The notes under the pieces are model-generated. The model was not told the DNA's origin. It was given only the letters and a program-made list of their open reading frames with translations, and made no database searches. Positions 12,870-38,939 of a stretch of DNA of 64,000 bases are shown here, piece by piece (position 1 is the stretch's first letter; the number at the start of each line of letters is the position of its first letter). Made by a program: the position numbers and the translations under genes. Origin of the DNA: Alloascoidea africana (taxonomy: Eukaryota; Ascomycota; Alloascoideomycetes; Alloascoideales; Alloascoideaceae); contig JAKTTT010000017.1 in NCBI GenBank assembly GCA_030581615.1, forward strand, positions 248,001 to 312,000, in the 5' to 3' direction.

Positions 12870-14289
12870 CTAAACCGGGGGCAACCGGTTTTAGACTTTA
12901 TACTTTGTCTTTTTTTCGCCCAAAATTTTTCCGGCGAACAAAAGACTGTCACATGAATCAGATTAGGTTGCCAATGTCTCACTTTTCTCGAAAGACAATC
13001 TCTCGGTTTCAGGTGCCTCCACTTCTTTTACCCCCCGTTATCAAAATGGAAAAAAGGAAGAAAATTCTATAGTTTATATTCATTATGCGGTATACCGTTC
13101 GGAATCAAGCAGACTTTCTTGTTTGTTTCCACACAAACTCTACCTTTAGTTGGTTGAAGATTAGATAAGATCTCAGACCTAACCGTTGCCAATTCGAATG
13201 GCAATATTTCGTCATTTAACCTTATCCATCCATACTGGATCACTCTTCTCAAATGGAAACAAATTGGACAAGGAAGAGGCTATAGACGGCTAACAACGCA
13301 TAATCTAGATAAAGGGTCTAATATCTACGGGCTGATAATCTGGTAGATAAGGAACGAATCAACTACAAGGTGTTTTACTATCAATTTGTAGTTATTTGAA
13401 AGTAGATAGGTTTAAAGCGGATTGTTCGGGTGTAGTATATTCTATGTTTCGTATGTGTGATCTAGAAGAAACAAACTCATCTTTTTCTAAACATTACTAT
13501 CGTCAATTTCACAACAGTCAATGACATAACCAAATCCGCTTTCTATTAAAAAAATGGATTATGTACTGAGTGCACACAATGCCTGACACAAAAATCACCA
13601 TGGTGAAATAATTTTTAAGAAGTGATAAAGTTGGTCTAATGCTCACACCAAAAATTGAAATCATTCTTCATTCAGCGCATATTTGCATGGAAATATGACA
13701 TTTTGCTCTATTGTCTGGACACAATTTGATATGCGTTTCAAGAAAACCACATTATAAAGACTTTTAACTTGTATAAGAAGATAAACTTCTCTTTCTAATA
13801 GGCGCTTGTTTTAACCGGGGGACCGTTCTAGAGGTACTAAATGTACCAACAGTGCACCCAAATTCATCCTATCCAGGTGAAAAATTCAGCGGGAAATTTT
13901 CCTTGCTCTAGTGGCCAAATCGCTAAATATGCGATGAGATAATTTGAATTCTTGTATTCTAGCATGTGGGGGTGCATTCTACATGATATACACCAAGAAA
14001 TTAAAGGAACTGTCATTGCTGTTTACAATTGCGAATTTATCGTTGTATCTAAATGCTTTTGGGTGGAACATATAATGTTTATAAATATTCATGTATGAAA
14101 AAAGCCTTCAACACGTGTTAGGATCCAAGACCTATCTATTCTAGGTGAATAACTCCTCCAGGATCTTTACTAAATTGATAAGCTTACATGCATAATAATA
14201 GAAATCGAATGCAAACGCACTGATCATCTATAGCATATGTTAACGTAGTTCCCATGCGAGCGGACCACCTTTCACTACCTATCTTAATA
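12870..14289. other. AT-rich gene-free stretch
   Basis: No credible coding frame on either strand. It opens the accessory block that runs to about 38.9 kb. I see no clear repeat ends of an element here. Confidence 0.6.
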
Positions 14290-14299
14290 TAACAGACAA

Positions 14300-15263
14300 T
14301 TAAAACACAACCACAATGAAAATCTACTCGCTATTACCCTTATCTGAATCTCCAGACATTTCTACAACTTTTGTACAAGTCCGCAAATTATGACCAGCTT
14401 TCCCGCAAGTACTACATGCGCTGAACAGCCGCCGCAGCTTGCCTCGACCGACCACCAGATTGCCTTGTTTCATGAGCTACCTGCTTATCAACCTCGTTCT
14501 GAGCTATAAAGGCTTGACCTTCTCCCACCGAAAGGGCTCCTCCTTGCTGTAAGCGTGTCTTTTGGGGCCTCCGGGGCTTGCTAAGTCTCTCGTTAGCCTC
14601 GCAAAATGATTTGTTCTCAGCACGCAGGATGGCCACCTGGTGAATAAAAAACCGAATTCCTTTTGCAATATTCTCAACAGCTTCATAAATTGATGTTGGA
14701 GAGCTGCTCTGGTGTCGGGAAATTCGATATTTTATATAGGCAGACTGTGAAGCGGCTTGTGGAAGAGTCTGTGGTGTCGAAGAGGCCCAAGTTGTAGAAA
14801 TCCGCATCAGCAACACCATATTTGGCTTTCATATTTGTCACAGGCTGAAGCCACGCGTTTATCGCGTCTGGATCTTTGCACTGGGCCCTCTGGTAGTCGT
14901 ATGAGCGATTAAAGAGTGTCTTGAGCTCTAGTTGTCGCTTGACGAAGTGTGCTTCCCGACGAGTCAGCCCTCACGCTCTGCGAGCAGAAGATTGGCCATA
15001 TCTTCAACACTAGGTAGGCGGGGAGAAAATCATCGGATATCAGGGTCAAGAATGAATTTTACTAGAGTCTTCTCTTCTAGCAGACTTAATCTCCTTGAAT
15101 TGGCAGGAATATCAGCGCGAGCGCGAGTTCCATTCATCCTAGTGTATACTGTTGAGTAGGGAACATAGTAGATCTGGGGAGCTTTCCGGATGCTGAGTTT
15201 TGGGTCTTTTTTGATAGCCTGGATGACAAGGAGGAGAATGTCTTCTTTAGAATTTGAAGACAT
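14300..15263 (-). mobile_element. Decayed Fot/pogo-type DNA transposon (transposase relic)
   Basis: Read on the minus strand this is a broken and internally shortened fungal pogo-superfamily transposase. The 5' part (15263-15030) is a psq-type helix-turn-helix: IQAIKKDPKLSIRKAPQIY, then VPYSTVYTRMNGTRARADIP. It continues as FSPRLPSVEDMANLLLAERE after a stop at about 15025, and then as pieces recalling DYQRAQCKDPDAINAW and MKAKYGVADADFYN in a shifted frame. The DDE catalytic core is missing (deleted at about 14785). The 3' part (14819-14412) is the family's C-terminal tail (SPTSIYEAVENIAKG, PQKTRLQQGGALSVGEGQA, ETRQSGGRSRQ) and then, in another frame, a zinc knuckle CSTCGKAGHNLRTC near 14395-14360. 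At least three frame breaks plus the deletion show it is dead. I could not identify terminal inverted repeats. Confidence 0.85.
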
Positions 15264-15345
15264 GTTATGTGGCAGAAGGAATTAATAGTTAAATAAGGAG
15301 TTTGGTAGAATTGTGAAGGTTGCGCCGCTCGCATGTGAACTACGT

Positions 15346-15354
15346 TATAAAAGG
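15346..15354 (+). promoter_or_regulatory. TATA box of truncated secreted-family copy
   Basis: TATAAAAGG lies 112 bases before the ATG at 15458. The same box precedes the whole copy (19027), inside a conserved stretch of about 110-125 bases. Confidence 0.5.
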
Positions 15355-21596: not shown

Positions 21597-21733
21597 GCTG
21601 TTATCAAAATAATCATATGCTTGAAAAAAATACAACAGTGGACACGGATCTTTATTGGCCTGCCATCTCCATGTCAGCAAATATCCGTCCCACTGTTGTA
21701 TTCCATTCAAGCCTATTACTATTTGATAACAGC
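21597..21733. mobile_element. MITE-like imperfect palindrome
   Basis: The 137-base segment begins GCTGTTATCAAA and ends TTTGATAACAGC. The left arm (about 53 bases) pairs with the right arm with few mismatches, including ACAACAGTGG against CCACTGTTGT. Both strands therefore encode a related frame here. This is the shape of a small non-autonomous DNA transposon with long inverted ends; no partner element or target duplication is recognised. Confidence 0.6.
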
Positions 21734-22192: not shown

Positions 22193-24022
22193 CTATTGAG
22201 AGCTTTGAAGTTGTTGCATAGCATTGAATACCACAGTCCTAACCATTGCATATCGCTTTTTGTCTACATCGTTCCCATCTTCAAGTACTCGCATAGAGCC
22301 ATCCGAGTTCATAACCGAAACCTTCCCAGTCAAACTGTTGAAGATGCGGCCATAATGGATATCTTGAATAAGACAACGTGCGACAATCTTCAAATCTTCG
22401 CCACGTAACTCACAAAACGGTTTCAGTATTTTTAAAAGTTGGTAAACGAATTCCTTGCGGAATGTTTTCACGTTGGGATTCACATCTGAACATAAATGAC
22501 GGAAAAACTTTGTTATTCTCCATTGTTGAGTGTTCCCAGTACTTTTATCCTCTTTTCCATTTCCATTTTCGCTTGTCCTTGGATTAAAAGGTGAAAGAGG
22601 TTCTAGGTCAAGTAACGGTCCCTCGCAATCGCCACAGCAAATGCTTAACGTTGAATTCCTCCGTAACAAAGTCTTTATCCTTGTTCCATACCTGTTTGTC
22701 AAAAGGATATAGAGATAGAATTCGGCCTCTTGTCTTGAGTCAAAGAAGGTTCCTTTTGTAACTGAGAAAGTGTCAAAATAGAGCTTGAATATCTGGTTCA
22801 CTGCAAATCCATTTTGCTTGTTCTGTACCATTTGGTTCACTTGTAGTGGTATTATAAAAGGTTGTTTGTGATCAGATCCGTCAAAGCTCAAGATTGGTTG
22901 TGAGGATTTTTCTCCGGATGGGTTTGCATCTTGGCTTGGACCCGATTCGTTCGCATGAGTTATTGGGACTACACCAGAATCAGAAGGACTTGTAATCTTT
23001 GGTACATCTTCAAGTTGCTCATCATCTGTAACTTTACTTTTCGAACTTTCTTCATGGTCAGTCTCGTCATTGTTAGACTCTAAAAGGCCTGGTGAGTTAA
23101 GGGCTGTGGAAGAGGGTTTCTTTTTTATTGTATTCAGCTCATCAACTTTGTCTGTGTAATTCATGGTTGGCTCAGTCACTTTGTTTACACATGTGTCTGA
23201 TTGTGTGCTATGGTATGGAACTGTAGGTGAAGACCCTGAATCGTTGGAAGCTCTCCTCGCTCTTTTCCTACCCTGAGTTGAGGATGATTTTGGTGGGCGT
23301 ATAGCTTCTGGCAAATCCGGGCCATTAGCATCTTCTTTGAATCGATTTGGAATGCTTGTTGATATAATTCCAGTATTTAAAGCTTGTAGATGTGTGATGC
23401 CATTAGGAGAGCTGCCTGTCCTTGATTGTGTCCCAGGCAAAATGTCATTGTAGGCATTATGCTTTTTCTCCCCGCTTACATTCTCCAGAGTCTCGTTAAA
23501 ACAGGCTTTATCCAGCCTTGTGATCTCTCCTAGCTTTTTAAAAACGCGTTCTAGTTCAGTTTCCATAACCTTTAACCGGGTTTCTTTTCTTTTGCAGTTG
23601 GCCTCAATTTCTCTAATTCTCGCAAGCTCTAAATCATGTTCTGCTCGAAACTCATCGAATAAGGAGTTGAAATAATGTTTTATGGCATGCAATTCTTGAA
23701 GATCCGAGAACCTGCCATCATTTGGATTTGGGTGCGTAGAGACAATGTCTCTTGTCTTTCCCTCCGCTTCAACTACATCACTGAGCACAGGATAGGATGA
23801 TGGCGACGTCGTAGCCCATTTGAGAGACGCTTTCCGCAGGTTGCTTGGTTCTTTTCGTTGAGCTGGAGTAAACGATGCATTGCTTGGTGATTCATCTTCT
23901 TTAGAACATTTCACTCTGTGTTCTTCTTCGTTCTGTTGCAATCTTGACGATCGCCTTCGTTTTTGTATCATTTCTGATCCATCTCGGTGATGCCTCTTTT
24001 TGGTTTGAACGCTTTTACACAC
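22193..24022 (-). CDS. Zinc-domain family protein A (WRKY-GCM1/MULE-like), long form
   Basis: A single-exon gene of 609 residues. The basic N-terminus (KRRRSSRLQQ) looks like a nuclear signal. Residues about 105-175 form a charged coiled coil (FDEFRAEHDLELARIREIE ... KETRLKVMETELERVFKKLG). A long Ser/Pro/Glu-rich linker includes GRKRARRAS. The conserved domain starts at about 400: KGTFFDSRQEAEFYLYIL, then SICCGDCEGP (C-x2-C), QQWRITKFFRHLC (W ... H-x-C), and a helical tail (RGEDLKIVARCLIQDIHYGR). This order of F-S-x-x-E-A, C-x2-C, W and H/C is that of WRKY-GCM1 zinc folds (FAR1, MULE transposase N-termini, yeast Aft1). The same order and the IxDIxYG tail occur in genes B-D, which are intron-split where A is not. 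A role as DNA-binding regulator is inference. Confidence 0.7.
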   Translation of the reverse strand: MCKSVQTKKRHHRDGSEMIQKRRRSSRLQQNEEEHRVKCSKEDESPSNASFTPAQRKEPSNLRKASLKWATTSPSSYPVLSDVVEAEGKTRDIVSTHPNPNDGRFSDLQELHAIKHYFNSLFDEFRAEHDLELARIREIEANCKRKETRLKVMETELERVFKKLGEITRLDKACFNETLENVSGEKKHNAYNDILPGTQSRTGSSPNGITHLQALNTGIISTSIPNRFKEDANGPDLPEAIRPPKSSSTQGRKRARRASNDSGSSPTVPYHSTQSDTCVNKVTEPTMNYTDKVDELNTIKKKPSSTALNSPGLLESNNDETDHEESSKSKVTDDEQLEDVPKITSPSDSGVVPITHANESGPSQDANPSGEKSSQPILSFDGSDHKQPFIIPLQVNQMVQNKQNGFAVNQIFKLYFDTFSVTKGTFFDSRQEAEFYLYILLTNRYGTRIKTLLRRNSTLSICCGDCEGPLLDLEPLSPFNPRTSENGNGKEDKSTGNTQQWRITKFFRHLCSDVNPNVKTFRKEFVYQLLKILKPFCELRGEDLKIVARCLIQDIHYGRIFNSLTGKVSVMNSDGSMRVLEDGNDVDKKRYAMVRTVVFNAMQQLQSSQ

Positions 24023-24612
24023 ACACGCGTAAAAATCACGTGAACACGCTCACAAAGAACGTAACTTCTTCAAGATTGTGAGCTTCCAAAAGTAATGGAA
24101 AAGCCTGAATAGAATTTGAGGAGTTTTGACTCGGATACTAGGAATTACAATGGAAAGCCACAGGTTGCAAGTTGAAGCCTCTTATAAGCAAAATCTACGC
24201 AAGAGAGAAGATTTCAGTTTATCATCGGTGTTATTGCAAAGTTTACAAATTACGCTTATTAGATATTCCTTGGCGAAGTGACAAAATAGAGTAGAAAACA
24301 GCGGTTCTTCTAATCCAGATACACGGAAAGAAAAACACTTCAGACCTTTCAGTGATTGATGTTGGCTTACTGATTGCAACTCAATCAGACCAGGCAGAAT
24401 TCCTTTTTTCTTTCTTGCCGATAGAGGTTTATTAAGTACGAGGGGTTTGATTGAAATCTTAATTGTTTTCTTCATTCTTCTCATTATTGTCTTCCCAAGT
24501 AGTGATAATTTGTGCTATCGATCGATCAGTGAACAATTGCAAAATTCTACAAAATTCTTAGATCAGTTTCCCAATTTGTTTTTATTTTTTGTTACATGTC
24601 CCCTATATAAAT
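24023..24612. other. Intergenic between family genes A and B
   Basis: An unsupported minus frame (24182-24484, 100 codons) has no family motif. Probably the promoter region of A and terminator region of B. Confidence 0.45.
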
Positions 24613-25864
24613 CTAGATCGACTGTTTTGCCCGTTTCCTGACAAGCCGAACCATCAATTCTTCTCTTCTCTTCATATAATGGATTAGCTCTTTTTGCTTC
24701 TCCTTGCTGGGAAGCAATATCTCTTTATATTTACCATCCATGGTAATAGAGCTAACTTTTTGAGTCTCTTCAATATATGCCATATCGAAGTATATATCTT
24801 GTAGAATGAAAACAGTGAATTGAATAATGTCACTGACGGGTCTGTCTGTCAACATCCTTATTGTCATTAGTAGATCCAATGTATGTGGACAGTTCAGCTT
24901 TCCTTCTTTTTTGCATTTTGCCAGTGAAGGTTGATAAACAACCGGCACTCTTTGGCCTGTAATTGAATTTCCTTCACATTTTTTGTGTGGAGATATATTT
25001 TTTATGACCCATGCATTGTAAGGAGCGCTATTGTTAACGCCATCATTGTAACACCCCGGAACTTTCTAGAAGTCAAAAGGAAAAAACTGGTTAGTATGGC
25101 AGCGTTTATCAAAAAAAGTGAATAGCGCTTACTTTTTTCGCGCAAAATACAACTTTTTTGCACTTTTTACAGCAATAAGAAAAGTTAGGAGCCTGGGTGG
25201 GACCTTTCTGCTCGCACCTTGAATTTCCAGATCTACCCAAAGCACCAGATGCAGTAGTTTCTCCCTTTCTTTTAATCTCGCGTAAGCCCTTTGCCCTTAG
25301 TTGCCTCAACAAAAGTCCTCCCTTTGCAGTAAAGTATAGCCACATAGCGTATTTAGCTGCATCAACATTTTCAAAATAGTCTCCCTTTTGAAGATTAAAT
25401 TCTTGAAGAGATCTTTTGAAATGACATCTTACAGCCACTGAGTTTGATTTCAAATTGTCAGTAAGCGTAGAACAAAAGGCGTAGGGGTCCACCAGGTTGC
25501 TTTCTGGAGAAGCTGCGGGTGGGAGACGAGATCCCATCGAATCCATATCTAGAGGGGATTGTCCAACTATTCGTGCCGCTTCAAGAGGTTGAGAACCAAC
25601 AGCCGAGTAGGAATAGTTTGTGGCATATCCATATTGGTATGGAGTGTTGTTGACCCTGTAAGGTGCCAAGGGCATCAGAGCGTTGTCAAAATATGCCGAG
25701 GGTTCTGGAGATTGTAGAATTGTTTGAGAATTTTGGTCCATCATTGCGAATGGAGACAGTTGGTAGTGTGGCTCTTCTAAATAAGGTATATTCATCGTGG
25801 CTGCTACTGTCGATCTTGTGTCTCCAAAAGTTGATGCTTGAGATTTCTGGTGGAACATTACCAT
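24613..25864 (-). CDS. Zinc-domain family protein B (two exons)
   Basis: Exon 1 is 25864-25133, the intron is 25132-25066 (67 bases, gtaagc ... tag, perfect TACTAAC branch site), exon 2 is 25065-24613; 394 residues. The N-terminal 110 residues are Tyr/Gln/Pro-rich, as in activation-type regions. The domain follows: NLVDPYAF, KGDYFENVDAAKYAMWLYFT, GLLLRQLRAKGLREIKRKG and FSYCCKKCKKVVF (C-x2-C). Across the intron come CYNDGVNNSAP, NAWVIKNISPHKKC (W ... H-x2-C) and KLNCPHTLDLL, then the helical tail with ILQDIYFDMAY and a basic end (RREELMVRLVRKRAK). The intron is phase 0 and lies between the two halves of the zinc site, exactly as in C and D. Function unknown; DNA binding is inference from the fold. 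Confidence 0.72.
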
Positions 25865-26845
25865 TTATATATTTTGACCACAACAGAAGAAGCGAGAATA
25901 TGTTTTTTTTATATTGTTCTCCCTGGCTCACCTCCATTGGGAGTGCCGACGAAGCCCTGTTCAAACTGTTCAAACGTGTGTACTCTGCAAAAATTTACGG
26001 TTCGTATGTTCCTTGTTATCACATATGGACTCGTTCTCGTAAATGCGTTCACCTTGTAGTTGTCTTAGCCGCGCTCTGCCATGGCTTTTCCCATTGGCTT
26101 GGGCAAATGGCCTGGCCCAGATCTAATCAAAGCCACAAGTGATTCTCATCAAGAGGAGCTTTCTAGCTGGAGTTCGACTTGTCAATTTTATTGCGTCGAT
26201 TTCTGAGAAGAGCACCGATAAAGCGTCGGTATCAAAAAGATTAATCAATTGGGAGTGGAATTCGATGTGCGAGGTGAACAGATTGGGATGGAGATCTGCA
26301 ACGCAGGTTCTCAAAGACCTCCTAAAAAGACCTTGTCATGGTCCAAACGAGGAGTGGTGAAGATCCATCAATCTTGTTTTTGAACGATGATTGATGTTGT
26401 TGGTGAACTGCCTGCTGCAGTTGGTTTTGCGTAGACGGATTGGAAAAGCCATGCGCGCCCACACATTTTTCATCTGAGCTGCGTTTCTGTCTCTTCTTCC
26501 GTAGGTGGGGAGGCTCACTTTCGCAGTACTCGTATTTGATAACGGCGTGTTTTCCGGAAATTTGTATGTCTGGTATTTCCTTACGGATTTGAGACAGTTG
26601 GTTACATTGTGGACACGGATCATGTTTCTAGCGGCTACTGAGCTCAGCTCAGCTCAGCTCAATTCTGCGGTTTGGAGAGGCAGCACAAAATAAAACGAAT
26701 ACCTTCTAGACAGCAGATCATAGCGGGCCCCAGCCAAATGTAAAGATAAATCAAATAATAATAATAGTAACAAAAATTTCTACAAAAAACACAGGCATCA
26801 TAGAAACGGAAAACTTTGGGCTTTTCGTTTGTTTTTCATAACTGT
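25865..26845. other. Intergenic between family genes B and C, with AGCTC repeat
   Basis: No supported gene; frames near 25963-26360 and 26623-26336 (minus) have no domain. A short tandem repeat of AGCTC (four units plus flanks) lies at about 26638-26661. Confidence 0.5.
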
Positions 26846-27917
26846 TCATGTGTCGGACTTTGCAAAGGTCTTCTTCCTCACCATTCGATTCATTAGCGAT
26901 TGTCTTTTCCTCATAAACAAAAGCTCGTTCTTTTGTACGTTGGGACATTGTTGAATAGTGTACATGTATCCATTCACATTTCCAGCAAGATCACTTTTAA
27001 CCTTCACAACTTCAGTGAGAAGTTTCGAGTCCTCATCGTAGCTTTTTCCAAAGTAGATGTCCTGCAATATCGCAACTGTTTCCTTTCGCAACTTTTCTGG
27101 ATTACCTTTTGTTCTCTCCGTTACAAGCTTCAGTAGCTCGTATGTATGCGGACAGTTCAACTTGGAACTCCTAAACTCTGGTGACAACGGAGACTTGGGA
27201 TGCGGACCCAGCTCTTTTCCTTTACTTGTCTCCAGAGACAAGCGCTGGTCGCGAACACATTCATCTAAAGGGTGATTCACAATTGTTCTGATAACCCACA
27301 CGTTTATCGGAGCATTGTTGTTGGTACCATCGTTGTAACTTCTTTTCATCTTCTATTTGTGTACAAAAAAAAAAAAACGGTGAGCAAGGCAAATGTTAGA
27401 TAAAACTACAAAATGATGGCTAGTTTTTGCTTACCCTTTTAGCAATGAATAACACTTTTCTGCAATTCTTACAGCAATAGGAAAAGCTGGCAGAGAGGCT
27501 AGGATCACAAGAGGAGGATTGGCTTTCGTCTTCATTTTCAATGTCGTCATCCGAATATGAGTAATCGATGCTATGAGGAGGTTCGTCCTCGATTATTGTG
27601 AGGTCATTATGATCCTTCTTTGGTTTTATATGGGTTGCGGTGGAAGATATACTTTTGCGTCGTTTCAAGGGCCGCAATCCTCTGGCTCTCATCTGTCTAA
27701 GGACAATGCCTCTTTTCGCTGTAAAATAGAGCCACATTGCAAACTTGATAGATTGGATTCTCTTACAATAGTCTCCTGGGCGGAGTTCAAAGTTTTCTAT
27801 GCATTGGTGAAACCAGCACCTTGTGGACAGTTCTTTTAAAGATGAGGATGACGATTGGGAATCATGGGGCAAAAATGTCTCCAGGCAAAATGGATCGATT
27901 AATCTGTTTTCTACCAT
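26846..27917 (-). CDS. Zinc-domain family protein C (two exons)
   Basis: Exon 1 is 27917-27435, the intron is 27434-27353 (82 bases, gtaagc ... tag, branch-like tctaac), exon 2 is 27352-26846; 329 residues. The N-terminus is shorter than in B and begins almost at the domain: RLIDPFCL, TRCWFHQCIENFELRPGDYC, SIKFAMWLYFTAKRGIVL, RQMRARGLRPLKRRK, an acidic loop (DDDIENEDE), then FSYCCKNCRKVLF (C-x2-C). After the intron come RSYNDGTNNNAP, NVWVIRTIVNHPLDEC (W ... H-x4-C), KLNCPHTYELL and ILQDIYFGKSYDE, ending in RKRQSLMNRMVRKK. The acceptor could also be three bases downstream without changing frame. A paralog of B and D. Function unknown. Confidence 0.72.
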
Positions 27918-28099
27918 CTGGTTCGTGGTGGTTTCTTCCCTCTAGCTAGCCTGCGTGGTATTACACTTGGAAGGGTGAGTCAAAAAGATACGTGGGGAAA
28001 GGGGAGATACATGCTATGATTTATCAAGAGGTGTAACGAGAATTAATTTATATCTAAACTAGAATATAAAAGGTGATGATTTTCGACATCCGGATTCAA

Positions 28100-28760
28100 C
28101 AGGGTTATGGACAAGTATGAGTAAAGAAGCAGCTCGGGAGCAATATGGCGGTGCCTGCCTCTCTCGCCTGGCGACGGCACCCTCCAGCGACGACTCTACG
28201 GAGCGGGAGCGCTCTCTCCAGCGCCGCTCCCTCCAGCCCAGCTGCCCAGGTCCCAGACCTTGCCAGACCATGCCAGACCAAAAGGGCCGTGGGACGAAAC
28301 TGAGCGGTTTGGATTGTGTCCGCAGCGTCGTTTGGACTGCCCAGCGCGAGCCGCCGGACGCGTTTTTGGTTGTGCTGGGGCTGCGGGTCAGCTGACCGCG
28401 TGTCATTGCCTCTTTGTGCCCGGGGCCGGGGGACCGGGGCGCGAGTCCGGGGCGCGTGTCTCTCGGGCGGCGCGGCTGAGCACGACTCGGGTGCGCTGCA
28501 TTGCCCAGAGCGGAAGGGCGTGCATACGAGCAGCATGACTCTTTTCCACTCGATCTTTCTCTTTTCTTGTCGACGGGCCAAGCGCCAGACACCTTTCACC
28601 GTCTTAGGTCTGCCAGGTCTTGGTTTCCATAAGCATTCGGACCCTGTAATAACTCTGTTCTTTTTCGGCCAGTGTCATGCTCTCTGCGTGTGCGCCCCCG
28701 GCTGGCGGCCCATCACCATCACCGTATACGGCTGCTGCCTAGTGTATCGCTTCGTGTCCG
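28100..28760. other. GC-rich island between zinc-domain genes C and D
   Basis: An abrupt, about 650-base, G+C- and CpG-rich stretch in AT-rich surroundings. Long frames cross it in at least four of six readings, which is what high G+C alone produces; none has a domain. It lies between the minus-strand cluster A-C and the plus-strand gene D, about 190 bases upstream of C. Confidence 0.5.
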
Positions 28761-28856
28761 CTGTCAACAAGGCAAACACATATTGCTTCGTTGTTGAACA
28801 CACAGATGACTTATCGTGAATGTGAAAATTACACAGCTAACTGTTCTTATGTCAAC

Positions 28857-29253
28857 CTAGTCTTCATCGCCATCGTAGCTCTCCAAGTCACTGACTGACC
28901 CTTTTCCTATTGCTCCCCGGCTTTCGGCCTTTCCTTTCACTTTTTCGCCGCCTCCATTCTGTGCAACAGTGTTCCATTTTATTCCAACACCCAGATCATC
29001 TTTCCTGCCCGATTCCCATTTTAGCATTGCCCTAACATTATCCATCATCATCGTCGTATACCTTCTTCTTCACCAACTCGCCCAAGCTCATTCTGTCTTT
29101 TAGGCTTGCGTACCTAGCAGATCGCAGATCGGCTTCCCTAATACAGCGTTGTGCTGTTAAAGTTTGAAGGAAATCTTTAGAAACCATAACAAAAACAAAC
29201 TTTGGGGCAAAAACCAAATTCGATACCTTTCTTTTCTGGAGGTGACTTGTCAA
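28857..29253 (-). pseudogene. Two abutting frames of one small acidic protein, +1 shift
   Basis: On the minus strand, 29253-29038 ends ASLKDRMSLGELVKKKVYDDD and a stop. An adjoining frame (29051-28857) reads NVRAMLKWESGRKDDLGVGI, then KWNTV and an acidic end (SDLESYDGDED). Read with one base skipped at the stop (GGA-T-AAT), the two would form one smooth charged protein, so this is either a host gene broken by a single extra base, a sequencing error, or a real +1 frameshift. The first about 20 residues may be intronic: gtaacg at about 29302 and an acceptor ttctaaag at about 29181 would join MASWNFHVPDSG to FLQTLTAQRC. I do not recognise the family. Confidence 0.4.
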
Positions 29254-29779
29254 ATAATTACTAGTCTGTCTGTTCGACTAAAGCACAAAACACGTTACCA
29301 CTGTCGGGAACGTGAAAATTCCAAGATGCCATTGACCTGCTCAAATTAAAATACAAAGCTTTTAAACATATTTGTAATGTGGTTCAGGGCTCTTTTTTTG
29401 TAATCCTAGAAGGCGAGCAAACAACCATTGTCATCTTCTCCCAGTTGTGCTGGCGAGAATAGGGTCTCGTATGCAACACCAGAATTGCCCTGCCAAGGTT
29501 TTATTAGAAGTGCCCTGCATTAATGCATCCCAAAATCCAAACGTGGCAGGGCGAAAACCGTCCTTTTAAACCATCTTTCTTTGCCCATACGCCATGAACA
29601 AGTCGAGTCCAATCATCTCGAGCAAATCTGATTCCTGGCTCAAATACGCCATTCCGACTTTTTGCTATCTCTATAATATATAAACACTCTTCCAGAAGCA
29701 CTCTGTGCTGTCTCTCTTCTTCCCTTGGGTTTAAAGTTGACCTACAACCCAAAACCCCAAACAGAAACACAATATAATA
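29254..29779. other. Upstream region of gene D
   Basis: Contains a minus-strand frame (29797-29504, 97 codons) overlapping the first codons of gene D, with a protein-like composition (EECLYIIEIAKSRNGVF) but no recognised family. Otherwise no feature seen. Confidence 0.4.
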
Positions 29780-31082
29780 ATGGCCCAAGATAACCACAAT
29801 AACTTTTCAATCTATTACGATGGCGAAGAAGATGATATCGATCTCTTCAGCACATCCTTGCCTACTCAATTCACCTCTGCTTTTGATACCGATAGTGATT
29901 TTCTACCATTGACACCTAATACGGCTCCAGGCACTCTCGATCTCAACGATCCTAATCAATCGTCTTCCATTCTGACCTCTTTAGATGAATTGGAATTGGC
30001 AATGTCTATGGTCTCTTCAAGAGATTCAGATTACTCTTCTTTTGTGTCCAATGAACTAGAAATCGATGCTCCTGTATATTGCATGCCGAGCACATCTTTT
30101 GACGCAGTTGGGCCTGCAACTTCTGCGACCGCTTGCCACCACCGTCATGATCACCCGACCCAACATCCAAGATCAACTCTGAGGTCGGAACCAACCACTC
30201 CAGTTGAAACCAAACTGATTGACCCGTTTAACTTTGGGCCCCTGGATCCTAGTAAAAGCGCTAGATGCTGGTTTTTTGAGCGTGCTCGTAGACTTGATCT
30301 GAAGCCGGGAAACTACTTTCTGTCTTCTCAAGATGCAAAATTCGGAATGTTTCTCCATTTCACGGTCAACAGTGGAGTTGTTCTGCATCAAATAAAAGGA
30401 CGTGGGATGAAAAGCTCGAAAGATGATGAAGGCACATCTCGAATCTCAGTTACAGAAAGACTGGCAAAAGGTGCAAGACTCCAATCCAGAAGGACCAGCG
30501 CCACCGGGTGGGCTCGTTCATTCTCTTATAAATGCCGGTCTTGCTCACAATTACTCTTTTATGTAAAACAGGTATGCATAAGGATATGAGAGAAATCTCT
30601 TTGAACACCTCCCACAAAAACCAAAACCAAAAAATTTAACCTAAACATGAATCTAGAAAAGTGAAAGAAGTTACAAAGACGGAACCAACAATCAAGCTCC
30701 TAGGGATGTCTGGGTGGTCAATCGAGTTGTTAACCATCACCTATCCAATTGTTCTGCAAGGTCGCTTGGCTTGTTACGGCACATAATTCTCGATGTGGAC
30801 TCATCAAGTAAATTCTGTTGTCCGTATATTTCAGAAATCAAAAGAGTTATTTACAACCAAGTTCTTATCACCCATGGCGATTTAAATTCCGAGCTTTTGA
30901 AAATTATCATGTCAATTTACTATGGAAAGTCTTATGACCAAAGCACCAGGAGAATGAGTTATGTTGTCGGTACAGAGGATGTTTATGAGATTTCTGAACC
31001 GGCAGCTGATCAATCTGAAGCTGACAAACTTCACAGAAGGCAAAAACTTATTAGAAGGATGCTTCGAAAACTGAGAAGATGA
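29780..31082 (+). CDS. Zinc-domain family protein D (two exons), opposite strand
   Basis: Exon 1 is 29780-30571, the intron is 30572-30656 (85 bases, gtatgc ... tag), exon 2 is 30657-31082; 405 residues. The acidic, Ser/Thr-rich N-terminus (DGEEDDIDLFSTSLP, TPNTAPGTLDLND) resembles an activation region. The domain matches B and C: KLIDPFNFG, ARCWFFERARRLDLKPGNYF, DAKFGMFLHFTVNSGV, FSYKCRSCSQLLF (C-x2-C). After the intron come RSYKDGTNNQAP, DVWVVNRVVNHHLSNC (W ... H-x4-C), KFCCPYISEI and IIMSIYYGKSYDQS, ending in a basic helix (RRQKLIRRMLRKLRR). The first Cys region has one Cys fewer (KCRSC against CCKKC), but the C-x2-C pair is kept. The phase 0 intron position is identical to B and C. Confidence 0.75.
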
Positions 31083-31563
31083 GTATTAATCTTCTAAAGA
31101 ATGGGAACTAATTAACGAATGGACGAACAAACGAACAAACGGAAATTTTGGGAGGCTTTTTTTTTAAAACTAATTACATGTGCTGTTTCATGATAGTCAA
31201 TCATCTTACTTTGCCTTAGTTATTGCATTTCTACTTCATGTTCAGCACTTTTTTTTTTTTGACTTTCATTGCACAATCTAATGATTTGGAAGAGATATTT
31301 CTCTCTTGCCCTGGTATATATATAGTTTTGGAACTTGAATGGAAGGACGGCATAAATCATTCTGTTTTTCTAAATCTATACTTAACATTGTACACTTTTG
31401 AAAACTTATAGGGCCAATCTTGTAAAAAGCAGTTGTCAAACTCTCAAGAGAATTTTGTGACATCGAGTTTCGCAGTTTCTCGACATGTGTCGCCGGGTAA
31501 CAACTCCGCTCAACCCCAGTTTCGATTTGGACCTTGCTGTAAAAGTAGGAAGAATCTCCAGAC
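31083..31563. other. Intergenic between gene D and DSC2
   Basis: AT-rich with T-runs; no supported feature. Confidence 0.5.
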
Positions 31564-32392
31564 ATGTTTGTTCCAACACCAAAAGGGTTTGGAAATACAC
31601 CTGTTTCCAAATACCTATGTTATTTTTCCGTTATAGTACCGGTTTTTATCTCTCTAATAGGCGTCAAGTACCTATTTGAGCTTCAATTCTTTCCCCAAGT
31701 ATGGGGTTGGTGTAAGCATCACGAAACAGATCAGCAACAACACTAGATATTAACATGTGTCTTAATCTTTAAGATCAATGGTGGAGACTCATAATATGGC
31801 AGGCCTGTTATTCAAACCAATCACAAATCATGTTTGGAACACTCCTGATTTATAATTTCAGAATATTAGAACGCCTACTTGGAACACACAAATACTTGGT
31901 TAGTACAGGTCGTCTATGATATCAAAAAAAACCGTTATGCCAGAATCACTAACGCCACACCGCCAATAGTCATATATAATCGTTGCTTACCTCTACATAA
32001 TAGCACTAACGACGGCAGTCATCACAGCATTTGAGTTCATTCCTTTTCTTCCATCTCTGACTATACATGCTGGACCAACTGCATTACTGTTTGCCCTACT
32101 AGTCCAATATTACGATTTGGTGCCAGTGGTTTACAGATTTGAAGTCTTAGGACTCGAAGCAAATTCAAAAATAGTCCTAACAGATCGAATCTTTATCTTT
32201 GGAATCGCTTTTCAAATAGCGACTTCTCAACCAGTTAGTAGCCTGTTAAGTGCGTGGATTGGATGGACAGTGGGTATTCTTATTCTCAGAGATGTTGTAC
32301 CGGGCAAAACATGGAGGGTAAAGAAGATTGATTTGAATGATGCATGGAGGCATGTGAATCGGTGGTTTTTGAACTCTTCAGCAACTTTATAA
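31564..32392 (+). CDS. DSC2: DSC2/UBAC2-like rhomboid pseudoprotease (three exons)
   Basis: Dsc2 is a rhomboid-like pseudoprotease subunit of the Golgi/endosome Dsc E3 ubiquitin ligase; UBAC2 is the human relative. Exons are 31564-31711, 31774-31898 and 31970-32392; introns are gtaagc ... aag (62 bases, tattaac) and gttagt ... tag (71 bases, cactaac); 231 residues. Start region: FVPTPKGFGNTPVSKYL. Then KYLFELQFFPQVWGWYQWW reads into RLIIWQACYSN. After that comes FGTLLIYNFRILERLLGTH, very close to the SSLLIYNFRIFERRYGSR of UBAC2. Exon 3 has at least three TM segments (YIIVAYLYIIALTTAVITAF, PTALLFALLVQYYDLVPVVY, and a third near 185-205). It ends at WRHVNRWFLNSSATL with no UBA domain, which UBAC2 has; a further 3' exon was not seen but is possible. 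Confidence 0.8.
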
Positions 32393-32939
32393 TGGGTCTG
32401 ATTCTCGGTTTTCTGTTCTTTTATAATTCATTACGCAATCCCTTGCAACTTGAGTGACTTCTATTTAGAAGAGACCCTCAAAGTCATGACTCTTTTTTGA
32501 AGACAATGCCAACGAATTTAGAGGGGGTATTATTCGAGCAAATTAGTTGATCAGTTCTTGTGCATTCTTGAACTCTGAGATTTACTTCTGAATGGTTTGG
32601 AATAGAACAGATCAAGAAAGAGATGTTTTCAAAATATATGTATTCGCATGTTTAATATAGAGTATAACTATCTGCAAAGATAGTTAGCATAGGAATATCA
32701 TTTTTCTTTATATGGGTAGGTGATTTAGGCCATTAGATCCACAAGTATCCAAAAAGACTGAGTACTAATATGTGACCTCTGATAATTAGGTTGAACGTGC
32801 TGGGGGACTGTTCTTACCCTATTTGGAACGCTTAGTGTATATCTGGGAACTTGTGTAAATAGTAGCACTCAATACAACGTCTGTGACAATGCTAGCCATA
32901 TCGTTCTTGTAGATTAAACACAAATCGACAAATTTCATA
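32393..32939. other. Intergenic between DSC2 and RPS19
   Basis: Holds the RPS19 promoter. I see no clear gene or element. Confidence 0.5.
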
Positions 32940-33644
32940 ATGCCAGGGGTTTCTGTGAGGTAAGATTATGTCTATATTATAGTCTCATTTTTTTCATCTC
33001 GATGGATTGGGTCTCGTCTGTTTTTGAATTGAACAATATGCTGGTCCGATTTGTTATTCGCAATAAGAGTGGACTATCAAGAACATTTTGATGTCTGTTC
33101 ATGAATTCTTGATAGTCTGGTTTAAATTTCCAATGAGATAGTAGTTGTTATGGGTATTGTGAAGAGGCTGAGCTCAGAGTGGAATCAGAATTAAAGGACG
33201 TAACTAACACCGTTTCATAGAGACGTTCCAGCTCAAGAGTTCATCAACGCTTATGCTCAGTTCCTTCAGCGTCAGGGCAAACTAGAAGTTCCTGGATATG
33301 TCGAACTTGTAAAGACAAGCTCTGGAAATGAGCTACCTCCTCAAGAATCAGAGACGTGGTTTTACAAACGTGCTGCTTCTGTAGCCAGACACATTTATTT
33401 GCGAAAGCAGGTTGGCGTTGGCAAATTGAACAAGCTCTATGGTGGCGCCATCAACCGAGGTGCGCGACCTTCTCACCATCGTGATGCATCTGGTTCGATA
33501 AATAGAAGAGTTCTTCAGTCGTTGGAAAAGATTGGTGTTGTTGAGCTTTCACCCAAAGGTGGTCGTAGGATTTCATCAAATGGTCAAAGAGATTTGGACC
33601 GTATAGCTGCTCAGACAATTGAAGATGAGGAGGACGATGAATAG
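32940..33644 (+). CDS. RPS19: 40S ribosomal protein S19 (eS19), two exons
   Basis: eS19 sits in the head of the small ribosomal subunit and is needed for 18S rRNA maturation. Exon 1 is 32940-32959 (MPGVSVR split in the Arg codon), the intron is 32960-33220 (261 bases, gtaaga ... tag, branch ctaacac), exon 2 is 33221-33644; 147 residues against about 144 in other yeasts. Visible family motifs are DVPAQEFINAYAQFLQRQGK, ETWFYKRAASVARHIYLRK, then KLYGGAINRGARPSHH and RRVLQSLEKIGVVE. The early, longer intron next to the ATG is typical of yeast ribosomal protein genes. The C-terminal EDEEDDE tail is acidic. Confidence 0.96.
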
Positions 33645-36473
33645 ACACATCATTTTGATTTTGTATTCATACCAAAAGAGGGGCCAACAAAACCAAACTG
33701 AAAATCAGGAAAATCAAACGAATAAAAACTGTATAATGATCTGAATGGAATTATGTTGATCATTGGAAATTTAGAATTGTATTCTATCTGGATTTATTGG
33801 TCTGAACTATAAAAGAACTTTTCAGAAAACAGTTCTTTGTTTCAAGAACAATTTATGTATTCCCAATAGCATTAAATGTGATCCCACTGTCTGTCAATGT
33901 AGTTTTATTCTAAACGATCTGTCGCTTATGATTACTTCCTAATCATATGCATTTCGCTTTTCCAAGATAGTTTCTAAATTTGCTTAGTATGCATTTTATG
34001 AGGAATGGGCTTAAGATGTATCGAGTTTTACTGGGAAAAAAAATGGAGAGTGCATCCACAACAGTTGCAGAGAAATCAACATTCTTGAGTAATTTAGTAG
34101 ATATATTTGGTTCAATATCGGTAGTATAATCTTATTGGAAGACACGCTACACAACAAGATTTCATTGGTTTTAAACCTGGTACTGTTAAGGATAAGCCGT
34201 TATTCGTAACTTTTTGTCCCAACACTACGAAGCAATTGAACTTGTTGACCAGAAAAAATGAAGCGCAGTATATAAAGAAAAACATGATTGTTGTCGAAAT
34301 TCCGATGACCCTTATGAAATACATCACATGTTAAAATGATGTCTAGTTTGCTTGAAAAATCGCTAAGCTATAGGTTTTTGCAACGTCCAAGGGAAATGGA
34401 TTTGAATTTTTTACGTTAATTTATATTCTCAAGCCGACTCATTTGTTTTTTTGAAGAAGTAATAGAAAGAATGGACATTATAAACTGTGAACCAATTGGA
34501 TTCCCTAGCTAGGGTTGTACTAACTACATCTACACCTTTCCCATAGTGGCTGTTTACAAATAGATAGATATCTTGATAATGCCACAACCACTTTTAGTTC
34601 ATTCTAAAAGAAAATTTGACTCCAATTTCCTTTTCAACAATCAAATGGCCAATCAATCATTATTCTAAGAATATTTTGGCAGAAGAACTCCTTTGAGTGA
34701 CTGGAATGCTTATCCTCTGGCAAAAAAAGGAGATAAAATAATTGTGCCAGAAAAGTGAGTTAGTAATACATTTTGAAAAGCCTTACTTGGATTTAGTTGC
34801 TTTCACTTGAACATGATAATGTCACTTTGAAGCTGTAATATAAGTTACTTATCGTTCTAATTGAATCGGGCAAATAATCCAGTTTGGTTCTCGTGAAAAT
34901 ATGCAGGTTTCTATTGTTCTAATGTTTCTCTCAAAACAAAATAGTAAAATTCCAACTGAAAAACAAATTATACGCATAGCTGGAAATTGTTAACAATAAG
35001 TGTTGCAGAAGTAAATGTAGGCTGGTCATAACTGTTTTTAAAAATAGGTGTACCGAGGATTTAGCGCCCTTCCTTTTATCCTTCTTGACCTTTATGTGAT
35101 TCTTGTCAAGTGTGCATATCTCAATGCTCAGCTTCTTGGTTTTTTCTTTTTCTTTCTTTCATCAGCAATCAAAGATACTAATTGGAATGTTGGGATTGAA
35201 CTCAACACATACATTTTACTCATCAAAAAGAATCTATGATTAGATTTAGAGTTTATTTAAAGAGAGACCATAAAAACTTCTGGAATAAGAGAAAATTTAG
35301 CCCATTATGAATATTTATAACATGATGTGTAATTCTGATGATCATGTCTGGCCCTTGCATTTGAGAAACAAACAATTAATTCTTCAAAGTGATTTGTGTA
35401 TGGATTTTGTGCACAAAAGCGGTTTTTCAAAGCAAAACCCCTTGTTTCACTCGACATCAACAAGTCAATTGAAATGTGACAGAACGGTCAATTGTCAACA
35501 TCCCAATGTCAACAAGCGGCATATGCAATGCGACTTTTAAATCTAGTTAACCATTGTAAATCAATTAATACTAATCGGTTTAAACCCCTTGTTCGATAGT
35601 GAATTTAGTACATGTTTAGATTACAGTTACAAAAGCCACAGACATTTACCCATTATTATAAAACTCTTCTGTACAGAATTATTAAAGAGAAATACATCAA
35701 ATTGTGGCATCAAGCAGTACTATTTTCCATGTTATGGAAGTACGATTGAAAATTGGTACAGGCAACTACAAGTAGAACTCTAGAAAAGCGACTAGATCTT
35801 TTTTTTTTTAAGATCATTTTCCAGTTCTCATCAAGTAGTCGTAAAAAATGTAAGAAAAGAGCGCCACAAAACCAAAAAACCATTCTTTTTGTCAAATTAA
35901 AATTGTGTCTACCAGGAAACACTCTACCAAAAATTGTCTTCTGGAAAATATATCATTTTGTTTTCTGTTCTCCCGATAATCATGGTATTAAACCAAAAAT
36001 TCGATGAATTTTTGGCTCTTCTTTGTAGTCTCCTACCTCTTTTTTCATCGAGAAACCTATTTTAACCCCTATGTACAAATCATAGCACATTAGTCTTGGC
36101 TGGAACCAGTTGATTCGCAAATAAACGATAATCTAGAATCAAATGGGATTAGAGCATAGTGCAAGGGCAAACTGTCTTGAGAAGTTCCAATCAAAACTGA
36201 CACACACTTTGAAAATCACTGCAACGCTTGCATCTGTGAAGCCATCATGATTAGTGGAATATCACTATTGTCTGTACTTTCCAGCACTAGAAGCAAGAAG
36301 AGGGTTACAAAACATTCATGCTCCTATTTCGGTTTGAACAATTGACATAATCACCGATAAGAGCAGGGCTTGATGCATCACTCTTTTTTCTCAAGCTGTC
36401 TTTTTCGTCTCACTAGAGCCGATTCTCGAACAATTTTTTGCTGTCCAGAGAATACGCAATTTTTGCTTCGTCA
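33645..36473. other. AT-rich gene desert, left part
   Basis: Nearly 3 kb with only short domain-free frames. A basic piece at 35753-36007 (SSSRKKCKKRAPQNQK) could be transposase debris but shows no diagnostic motif. Confidence 0.5.
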
Positions 36474-36857
36474 ATGACCCGTGCTAACCCAATCGAGTTG
36501 GAACAAAAACATCACTGGCCCGCCGTGGTCAAAAACCTTACCGGTAAAGAAACTATGACAGAGTTCTCGCATATAGAAACGATTAGCTTTTCTAGAAGAA
36601 CTGAACTTTGTTTTTGTTTCGCTAGAGAGAAGGGCAAGTCTAACTTTTCTCAAATTGTCTCGACGCTACCTGCAGAAAATCTCTCTGTATATCTAAACCC
36701 ATCTCAAATTATTCATAATAAATCGGCTTATCTTGTCTGTTTTTTGCGTTGGACAAATGTGTCTTTTCTTGTTACCACAAGGCCAACACTATATCCAGAT
36801 AATGATGCACTTTCCCAAATAGTTTCTGCAACCGTAGTTGACCAATTGCAGATGTAA
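36474..36857 (+). CDS. Hypothetical small protein
   Basis: A 127-codon frame from the Met at 36474 (MTRANPIELEQKHHWPAVVK); the frame is open to 36438 through a TTG. Composition is protein-like (REKGKSNFSQIVSTLP, YLVCFLRWTNVSFLV), with a hydrophobic core strand, but I recognise no family, and the surroundings are gene-poor. It could be an exon of a longer split gene or a chance frame. Confidence 0.3.
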   Translation: MTRANPIELEQKHHWPAVVKNLTGKETMTEFSHIETISFSRRTELCFCFAREKGKSNFSQIVSTLPAENLSVYLNPSQIIHNKSAYLVCFLRWTNVSFLVTTRPTLYPDNDALSQIVSATVVDQLQM

Positions 36858-38939
36858 ATTAATCAACACTTTAACAATCACTATCGTTGTCAATAGCAGC
36901 AAGTCTTATTTCTTAAGTATGGGTTGGGTTTGAGCAAAATTACGTAAATACAAGCGGCCATAAATCGCAATTGACATAGAATTATGATAGTTTTGTGGTA
37001 TTGGATCGTGTTTCTTTCCTCACATGATCGGGTACTGGTTGGTTGGTAGAAGAGTTAGTAGAAAAACTTCGAAGCAACGAGTTGAAAATGGGATCCCGTA
37101 CTGGTAAATGTAAACCAAAAGTAGGCACATTTTTTATTGTCTCCCCATAACAAGAACTATTAGATGCGATAAAACATTATTAAGCCACACTTTTAAGTGT
37201 ATTTTTTAACCGTACGTAACGCATAGTTAGTTTTCAACGTTAAGAGTCTTAAACTTGGTCGCCAACTTTTCTTCAGGTTGTGTACATTGTTTGACAAGAC
37301 CTGTTTATGTATATAGATAGACACTACTAGGTTAAAATTTATCTGCGGGGCATAACGCTCGTAGCATCAACGTTTGTGTCGTTTGAAGAGACCGTTAGAA
37401 AGCCTAATGTAATCTTCAATGATGAATGAAACAGTACATTGCAAGCTTGCCCAGAGAAATGATGTATTTCGTTGAAAAGCCATAACAGCCATGTGAAGAA
37501 AAAGTGGGTTCTGCTTTTCCCTTTTTTTTTTTTTGTCCATGGAATTGATTCATTTTTAAGGGGATAAAAAATAATCACATTTTGATGATCTTACCTTGTG
37601 AGTCTTCGCTATATTCTGCTTGAAATAGACCCTGGTGCAATTGGACCTTCAACTTGAAACCATAGATTCTAGAAAGACATAAACTGACTTGGAGATTTGC
37701 AGAAAATACGGCTCAAGTCAGTTGGATTGATACTCTTGCTACACACTTTATTCACAGGGCAAAAGGAATAAGGTTACTGATAGACTTCAAACTTCTTCCT
37801 TTTTATGCATTTAGGATGAACTCATAGGACAACTGTAGCCGAGAAAGCCTTCATTGGCCATATCTTTACCTCTGTTCCCCTCCATTTAACGATGAGAGTT
37901 CTATATCAATTGTTCAAGAAGAATGCAGAGAATGTTCAATGACTTCCACGCAAGTTCATGCTCATTTTTATGAACCCGATACACATCGGAAGCAGATTGG
38001 CTTGCAAGAACATTAAGATACTGAATGTTCCGATAAAGCCACCCCTATTGGCTGCTCGGTCTTTCCGGCGTTCTAAATTTTCACTGAATATGCACAACTC
38101 ATCAAGCTTAATCGCTTTGACCCACTCGACTGCTCCTCACAAAAAATACTTCTCTAGCAATCGCCCGCAAGTTTGTAAGAATACCGCCATTTGAACTGAG
38201 CAATTACATGGCTTTGTCGAAAACATGACAGTCCAGACGCAAGCGAAAAATAATTTATCATTCAATTAAACTCAACGATGAAGAAAAGCAAGTTGGCATT
38301 AAATAACGTTTTACTTAGAATAGTACAAGATTTTGTTGAACGAAGGGTATAAAACATTATGCGTCAATTAAAATAGTTCTTCATCTCTTCACACGTAATT
38401 TCCATATGAGAATTCTAGGACCGCTACTAAGACTTACCACTGATTCAAATAAATATTCCGACTTATTTTGTTATCGATATTATCCAAAGAACTATCTGCA
38501 ATATCAAGAACTGAGATTGATCATAAAACCTCTCTCTACCCACTAGCTGTGTAGAATGAATATGAAGTGTCAAAAGCCAGTAAATCTTGGTTTTGCATCC
38601 CCGTTGGCTAGTTTATAACGGCGAGACAGGCAGGTATATGCAAGCCAGTGACAAAAGAAGGAAAATCCGTTTCCTGTTGTAGAGGCATGCATTCTTATAT
38701 TTCCTCTTGGGGATTGTATGCAAAGCACAGCAGATCAGTGCATGGCGCACAGGTGCTGATTGACGCGTCGTATAATAATCAATGCTGGTCGTATAGTGTT
38801 ACACAATATGGAGTACCTGCAGATATATAACAAGTTACATCTGCCCTCAAGACTTCCAGTTCTCCAAATAACAGATGTCAATGTCTGAAAGGATCAAACA
38901 TCCTTATTCAATTTCCTTCCAATCCTAGTAAATGACAAA
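36858..38939. other. AT-rich gene desert, right part
   Basis: Short frames at 37578-37339 (minus), 37958-38194 and 38648-38830 show no domain. Upstream region of the zinc-finger gene; nothing else supported. Confidence 0.5.

Follow-up and report, generated by a model that had tools for sequence, protein, structure and literature searches.

Four neighboring genes, here called A–D, lie within a 64,000-nucleotide stretch of contig C17 (JAKTTT010000017.1) of the yeast Alloascoidea africana (assembly GCA_030581615.1, 23.18 Mb in 138 contigs); this stretch is referred to below as the window. Sequence comparison and structure prediction suggest that A–D and their relatives elsewhere in this genome are probably sequence-specific DNA-binding regulators carrying a WRKY-GCM1-type zinc domain of the FAR1/MULE branch. 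We infer zinc binding, DNA binding, and activation, and that the domain descends from a MULE transposase. Homology was searched with BLAST and profiles in the genome that encodes A–D (23 Mb), and all gene models and introns are predictions. C1, C2, C14, C20, C32, and similar labels denote contigs of the same genome.

The four genes share one order of motifs, as proposed in a preliminary description of this DNA; the patterns are found in all four, and homology recovered by BLAST and profiles places the resemblance beyond chance. The motifs read CGDC...W...HLC in A, CKKC...W...HKKC in B, CKNC...W...HPLDEC in C, and CRSC...W...HHLSNC in D, with seven residues between Trp and His in each, inside the range of five to eight given earlier. 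The introns of B, C, and D have GT...AG borders and lie in phase 0 directly after the C-x2-C segment, so that exon 1 of B carries C-x2-C and exon 2 carries W..H..C and the tail (Table 1). Queried against the genome, exon 1 of C recovers B (E 1.9e-18) as well as D (3.8e-11), and exon 2 recovers both again (2.7e-15 and 2.7e-13, respectively).

The four-gene cluster described earlier belongs to a larger family, with at least 14 genes across the genome: A–D on C17, six genes on C1, one on C2, one on C32, and a near-identical pair on C20. The count is a lower bound because the genome search scores only the best candidates. Outside C17, the exon-1 query retrieved the six C1 genes (311–379 kb) and the C2 gene, the weakest at E 1.4e-7, with weak matches on C32 (E 0.054) and at two places on C20 (0.11 and 0.28). 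The exon-2 query found eight other genes at a best E ≤4e-8 (B, D, those on C32 and C2, and four on C1) and matched two more C1 genes weakly (0.027 and 0.50). Models were built for the eight genes on C1, C2, and C32, among which the start of C1_311 is uncertain, its frame staying open further upstream; a profile of these eight with B, C, and D (11 members) recovers both members of the C20 pair, with E-values of 3e-8 and 7e-8. All 14 members contain C-x2-C, Trp, His, and a final Cys (12 models scanned by pattern, both C20 copies by reading), except that C2_677 alone has Cys for His, which corrects the motif as first worded. All 12 aligned rows keep the two cysteines and the Trp unchanged, and the third ligand follows Trp by seven residues in 12 of the 14 members and by eight in C1_379 and C32_136. 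Nine members have the intron, located nine residues past C-x2-C in eight of them and 11 in C1_379; C1_337, C1_356, the C20 pair, and A are intronless. The conserved tail word is present in A and degenerate in C20.

Three further features of the family sequences were seen. A further Cys in exon 2 of gene C (word LNCPH, window 27146–27160) is kept in ten of the 12 aligned rows, is missing from C1_311 and C20, and has no counterpart that we saw in A. The frame of the intronless gene at C1:356 kb (L034:464–1597) continues AKKVSSR past the C-x2-C, like a translated splice donor. Both C20 copies read CKKC, W, and HKVC; over 316 aligned codons they show 18 synonymous differences, with another 45 lying in changed codons. 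Their conserved domain has few changes and their N-terminus many.

The preliminary description called the family young, a view that the divergence of its members does not support. Identity to C is 22–42% in the 12-row alignment, and the median end branch of the tree is 0.95 changes per column. In a 13-row tree, D and C2_677 form the sole strongly supported branch of ten (98/98) and are joined by C32_136 (93/97), while C1_337 pairs with C1_356 (82/86). No clade unites the C17 genes, and none the C1 genes; the clusters therefore did not arise by recent tandem copying, and only the C20 pair is recent. The six C1 members are spread over ~80 kb poor in other open reading frames (C1:302595–384501; loci L038 and L029–L036), with gaps of 3–10 kb. 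Counting any open reading frame of ≥150 codons, 100 kb of C1 contains ten frame-free gaps above 3 kb with a median gap of 3.5 kb, and the window three with a median of 1.1 kb; the gene-poor C1 stretches may be long control regions.

Structure prediction yields the ligand order expected of the WRKY-GCM1 fold, as had been proposed. The AlphaFold model of C1_337 follows the order strand-CxxC-strand-strand(W)-H..C, with pLDDT of 82–95 in eight of ten blocks over residues 31–130 and a pTM of 0.54, and the model of the last part of A (22196–22870) has the same strand and ligand order with a pTM of 0.71. The C-terminal module of A is predicted as helix-helix-three strands-helix. PMC9252788 describes a four-stranded sheet as the common core of the WRKY-GCM1 clan (CL0274). 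In the predicted models, the family resembles this clan in a four-strand core, a Cys pair at the hairpin, and His or Cys after the last strand; it differs in having an extra conserved C-terminal module and no sequence similarity to WRKY.

The relation to individual branches of the clan was measured with hhalign against a null of 127 real non-family reading frames and 60 column shuffles of each template, the shuffles being run with A. The FAR1 template, an Arabidopsis FAR1-type domain, scored as PF03101 at E 6e-26; the WRKY template held five WRKY domains with rows from Protein Data Bank (PDB) chains. Against FAR1, the family profile scores 25.9 (24.9 with A) and aligns W and H in register; against the N-terminal exon of a MULE on C14, it scores 27.1 (30.1 with A). 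The best of the 127 frames reaches 21.1 (22.1 with A), and the best of 60 shuffles 17.9 for FAR1, 22.0 for MULE, and 17.9 for WRKY. The FAR1 and MULE scores thus exceed every decoy and every shuffle and link the family domain weakly to both. The WRKY link was rejected, its score of 11.7 (11.4 with A) lying within the null and no PF03106 match occurring in the 12 rows. The AFT proteins are yeast iron regulators, transcription factors placed in the WRKY-GCM1 superfamily; this link was also rejected, as PF08731 had no match in the genome (in a search whose controls responded only below the cut-off) or in the 12 family rows. Of the likenesses put forward earlier, those to FAR1 and to MULE N-termini are supported, weakly but above controls, and those to WRKY and Aft1 are not.

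The FAR1 domain (PF03101; plant FHY3/FAR1) has the C..C..W-x-I..H order of the family and, like it, a helix followed by strands; the local profile match pairs the family segment PINVWVIRTIVNHPLDECVR with 20 FAR1 residues. Unlike FAR1, whose cysteines are widely spaced and whose last ligand is His, the family has C-x2-C and a last ligand Cys, no MULE or SWIM match, and no match to the Pfam model in any sequence scanned. PF03101 had no match in the genome and none in the control genomes either, while the FAR1 domain used as positive control scored 91.5 bits.

The C14 element matches MULE at 47.9 bits (cut-off 27.6), and its SWIM match falls slightly short of the cut-off. A pair of 43-nt inverted repeats with 81% complementarity, separated by 5.5 kb, may be its ends, and it has relatives elsewhere in the genome, several with stops. 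Its N-terminal exon reads SFNVPNGLQVESFADAKFLFYIK...YRYSCSLCKQGVAMVFKA and resembles the family in the DAKF helix region, the C-x2-C, and a nearby phase-0 donor, GTAAGT, 10 residues past the C-x2-C, where eight of the nine intron-bearing members have nine and the other 11. The elements differ in that the third and fourth ligands were not found in readable MULE copies (a third copy, on C15, is unreadable past the intron), and family loci lack an RNase-H-like transposase match: PF10551 matches seven stretches in the genome, none at family loci, and none of the 12 domain rows. As no Trp or W-x7-H..C is present in the readable start of the next exon, the relation of the family to MULE is suggestive, not proven. 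Kluyveromyces alpha3, a proposed MULE-family transposase needed for mating (PMC2762165), is by description an earlier example of a MULE-related protein with a part in yeast cell identity. Elsewhere in the genome, an open 842-residue frame on C5 (L046:481–3009) matches MULE and the ZSWIM1-3 RNase H-like domain below threshold and is possibly a domesticated transposase.

The preliminary description also placed the genes next to transposon relics. The nearest one identified looks pogo-like, by our own reading of the sequence rather than a family search, and lies ~7 kb from A; it is 87% identical to a copy in the C1 gene cluster (C1:346033–347141) and has a relative next to a C20 member. It belongs to a superfamily other than MULE, and the proposed proximity to relics is weakly supported.

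Several results weigh against the FAR1/MULE assignment. The hhalign probabilities for FAR1 and MULE are low (9–36%), and the FAR1 match spans only 20 columns at a probability of 9–12%. Family profiles match the MULE exon at E 0.24 (full), 0.022 (trimmed), and 0.0049 (exon-1). Beyond the likely acceptor, the C14 and C1 MULE copies give ~20 residues before their frames are interrupted or part ways, and this stretch includes a His but no W-x7-H..C. AlphaFold produced five models of A, of which one is confident (76.8) and the rest score 48.8–60.9. Foldseek gave the C1_337 and A models no significant structural neighbor (no PDB match at E ≤0.001). Finally, FAR1, WRKY, AFT, and FLYWCH are absent from the Pfam results for the 12 rows, the A–D exons, the A domain, and one C20 copy.

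Other searches were similarly sparse. A sequence search of solved structures gave three chance-level matches (best E 0.13) and none for A. Pfam was run on the A–D exons and on the domain rows, so that genes outside the window were covered by their domain part: no Pfam family matched more than one of the 12 rows, the best hits (E 0.0072 and 0.0089, one row each) being to unrelated families; nothing matched the A domain or the one C20 copy scanned, and the MULE exon gave only a chance-level hit. The 12 rows had no NCBIfam match.

The composition of the proteins is divided along their length. In 11 of 12 models, the region preceding the domain is 34–56% Ser/Thr/Gln/Asn/Pro, the other being C, which is short, as first described, with only 17 residues (24%) in this region. 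Net charge there ranges from −19 to +7, and all but one of the 12 models are neutral or acidic in this region, in keeping with the activation-like N-termini ascribed to B and D, whereas the part from the domain to the C-terminus is net basic in all 12 (+3 to +24). This charge split, together with the fold, suggests transcription factors. In such proteins, the low-complexity N-terminus, acidic in several members and almost lacking in C, would recruit coactivators or corepressors. The zinc domain would consist of helices followed by four strands, with the C-x2-C, located between strands 2 and 3, binding zinc together with the His and Cys that follow strand 4; the basic part bearing it would contact DNA, and the conserved C-terminal module may serve subunit pairing or extended DNA contact.

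The membership of A has to be weighed separately. BLAST with A returns A alone, the untrimmed 11-member profile matches it at only E 0.013 and the exon-1 part of the trimmed profile at 0.13, and one multi-row alignment misplaces its cysteines, as would be expected if A were unrelated to B, C, and D and resembled them by chance. We consider this very improbable. Once gap-rich linker columns are removed, the 12-row profile built without A matches A at E 1e-7 (29.1 bits, 2808 target frames); an alignment with three intronless members brings the C-x2-C pair, the W, H, and last C, and the IQDIxYG word of the tail into register, and the predicted model of A repeats the strand order. By these comparisons, A is a remote family member. 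Its frame is open from a GTG at 24022, probably not the real start.

For the family as a whole, the more serious competitor to DNA-binding regulators is a protein- or RNA-binding zinc ribbon, with a convergent C-x2-C/H-C arrangement unrelated to FAR1 or MULE. Zinc ribbons with C-x2-C are common, and the low hhalign probabilities, the lack of a convincing Pfam or any Foldseek match, and the missing W-x7-H..C in MULE would all fit such a protein. It accounts poorly for a FAR1 match that aligns W and H in register and outscores 127 decoys and 60 shuffles, for a MULE exon that also has the helix region, C-x2-C, and close phase-0 donor, and for a basic domain paired with a low-complexity N-terminus, which fits a transcription factor; we regard it as unlikely. 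Less probable still are truncated MULE-like elements that kept their DNA-binding part and spread as transposons. The likeness to the MULE exon and the inverted C20 pair near a pogo-like relic speak for such remnants, but all 14 genes are open frames, nine of them carrying the shared intron and nearly all retaining the tail, and copies other than the C20 pair are diverged, whereas several real MULE copies have stops. The absence of PF10551 at family loci also argues against them, as do the inverted pairs of the window cluster, which are short and imperfect (23–35 nt, 70–83%) with none framing a gene consistently.

Table 1. Predicted genes, introns, and elements (window coordinates unless a locus is named)
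Feature	Position	Strand	Description
Gene A	22193..23971	−	single exon, 592 aa from first ATG at 23971
Gene A family domain and tail	22196–22870 plus stop	−	last 225 residues; part modeled with AlphaFold
Gene B	24613..25864	−	exons 25864–25133 and 25065–24613, 395 aa
Gene B intron	25066..25132	−	67 nt, GTAAGC...TAG, predicted; 9 residues past C-x2-C
Gene C	26846..27917	−	exons 27917–27435 and 27352–26846, 330 aa; shortest N-terminus
Gene C intron	27353..27434	−	82 nt, predicted; codon position as in B and D
Gene D	29780..31082	+	exons 29780–30571 and 30657–31082, 406 aa; acidic N-terminus
Gene D intron	30572..30656	+	85 nt, predicted; codon position as in B and C
C20 pair	L041:4791–5774 and L042:7363–8310	+ and −	inverted, intronless, near-identical
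MULE N-terminal exon	L050:3849–4310 (C14)		followed by the phase-0 donor
Pogo-like transposase relic	14239–15347		~1.1 kb

Other window genes include transketolase, DAHP synthase, a Git3 receptor, Sds3, and replication factor C, and window introns are short and GT-AG. The transketolase has its best PDB matches in 1tka and 1gpu, both yeast enzymes, and taken together these features point to an ascomycete, probably a budding yeast. CTG codons of the family fall mostly in Leu/Ile/Met/Phe/Val alignment columns, indicating that CTG is translated as Leu and ruling out a non-standard CTG code. Downstream of A, a 35-nt inverted repeat (21607–21724) is 83% complementary with 48 nt between its arms. The intergenic region 31300–38800 was considered as a repeat and rejected, since only one other genomic place matches it: a 431-bp segment (33213–33643) has a single further copy, at C86:1031–1461, 82% identical.

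The preliminary description raised the possibility that the family is undescribed, which accords with the lack of a convincing Pfam match. Text searches of titles and abstract openings surfaced no paper on such a family; FAR1 and WRKY are absent from the main text of a survey of how fungi have co-opted transposons (PMC10799480). The negative text search and the lack of a clear Pfam match are not proof that the family is undescribed.

A speculative history, which we hold to be possible though doubtful, begins with a yeast lineage acquiring a DNA-binding domain, intron included, from a MULE transposase. The domain would then have been fused to activation regions and to an otherwise unseen C-terminal module, and would have multiplied into at least 14 transcription factors, several of them in unusually gene-poor stretches, in a manner comparable to plant FHY3/FAR1. 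If true, this would be a case of yeast regulators that derive from a transposon. To our knowledge, large yeast regulator families are nearly all Zn2Cys6, C2H2, bZIP, or Myb; an expanded family that carries a MULE/FAR1-like domain and lacks a clear Pfam match would give yeasts a further DNA-binding class. Because the genome still carries a MULE with a similar exon, the transposon origin is directly testable.

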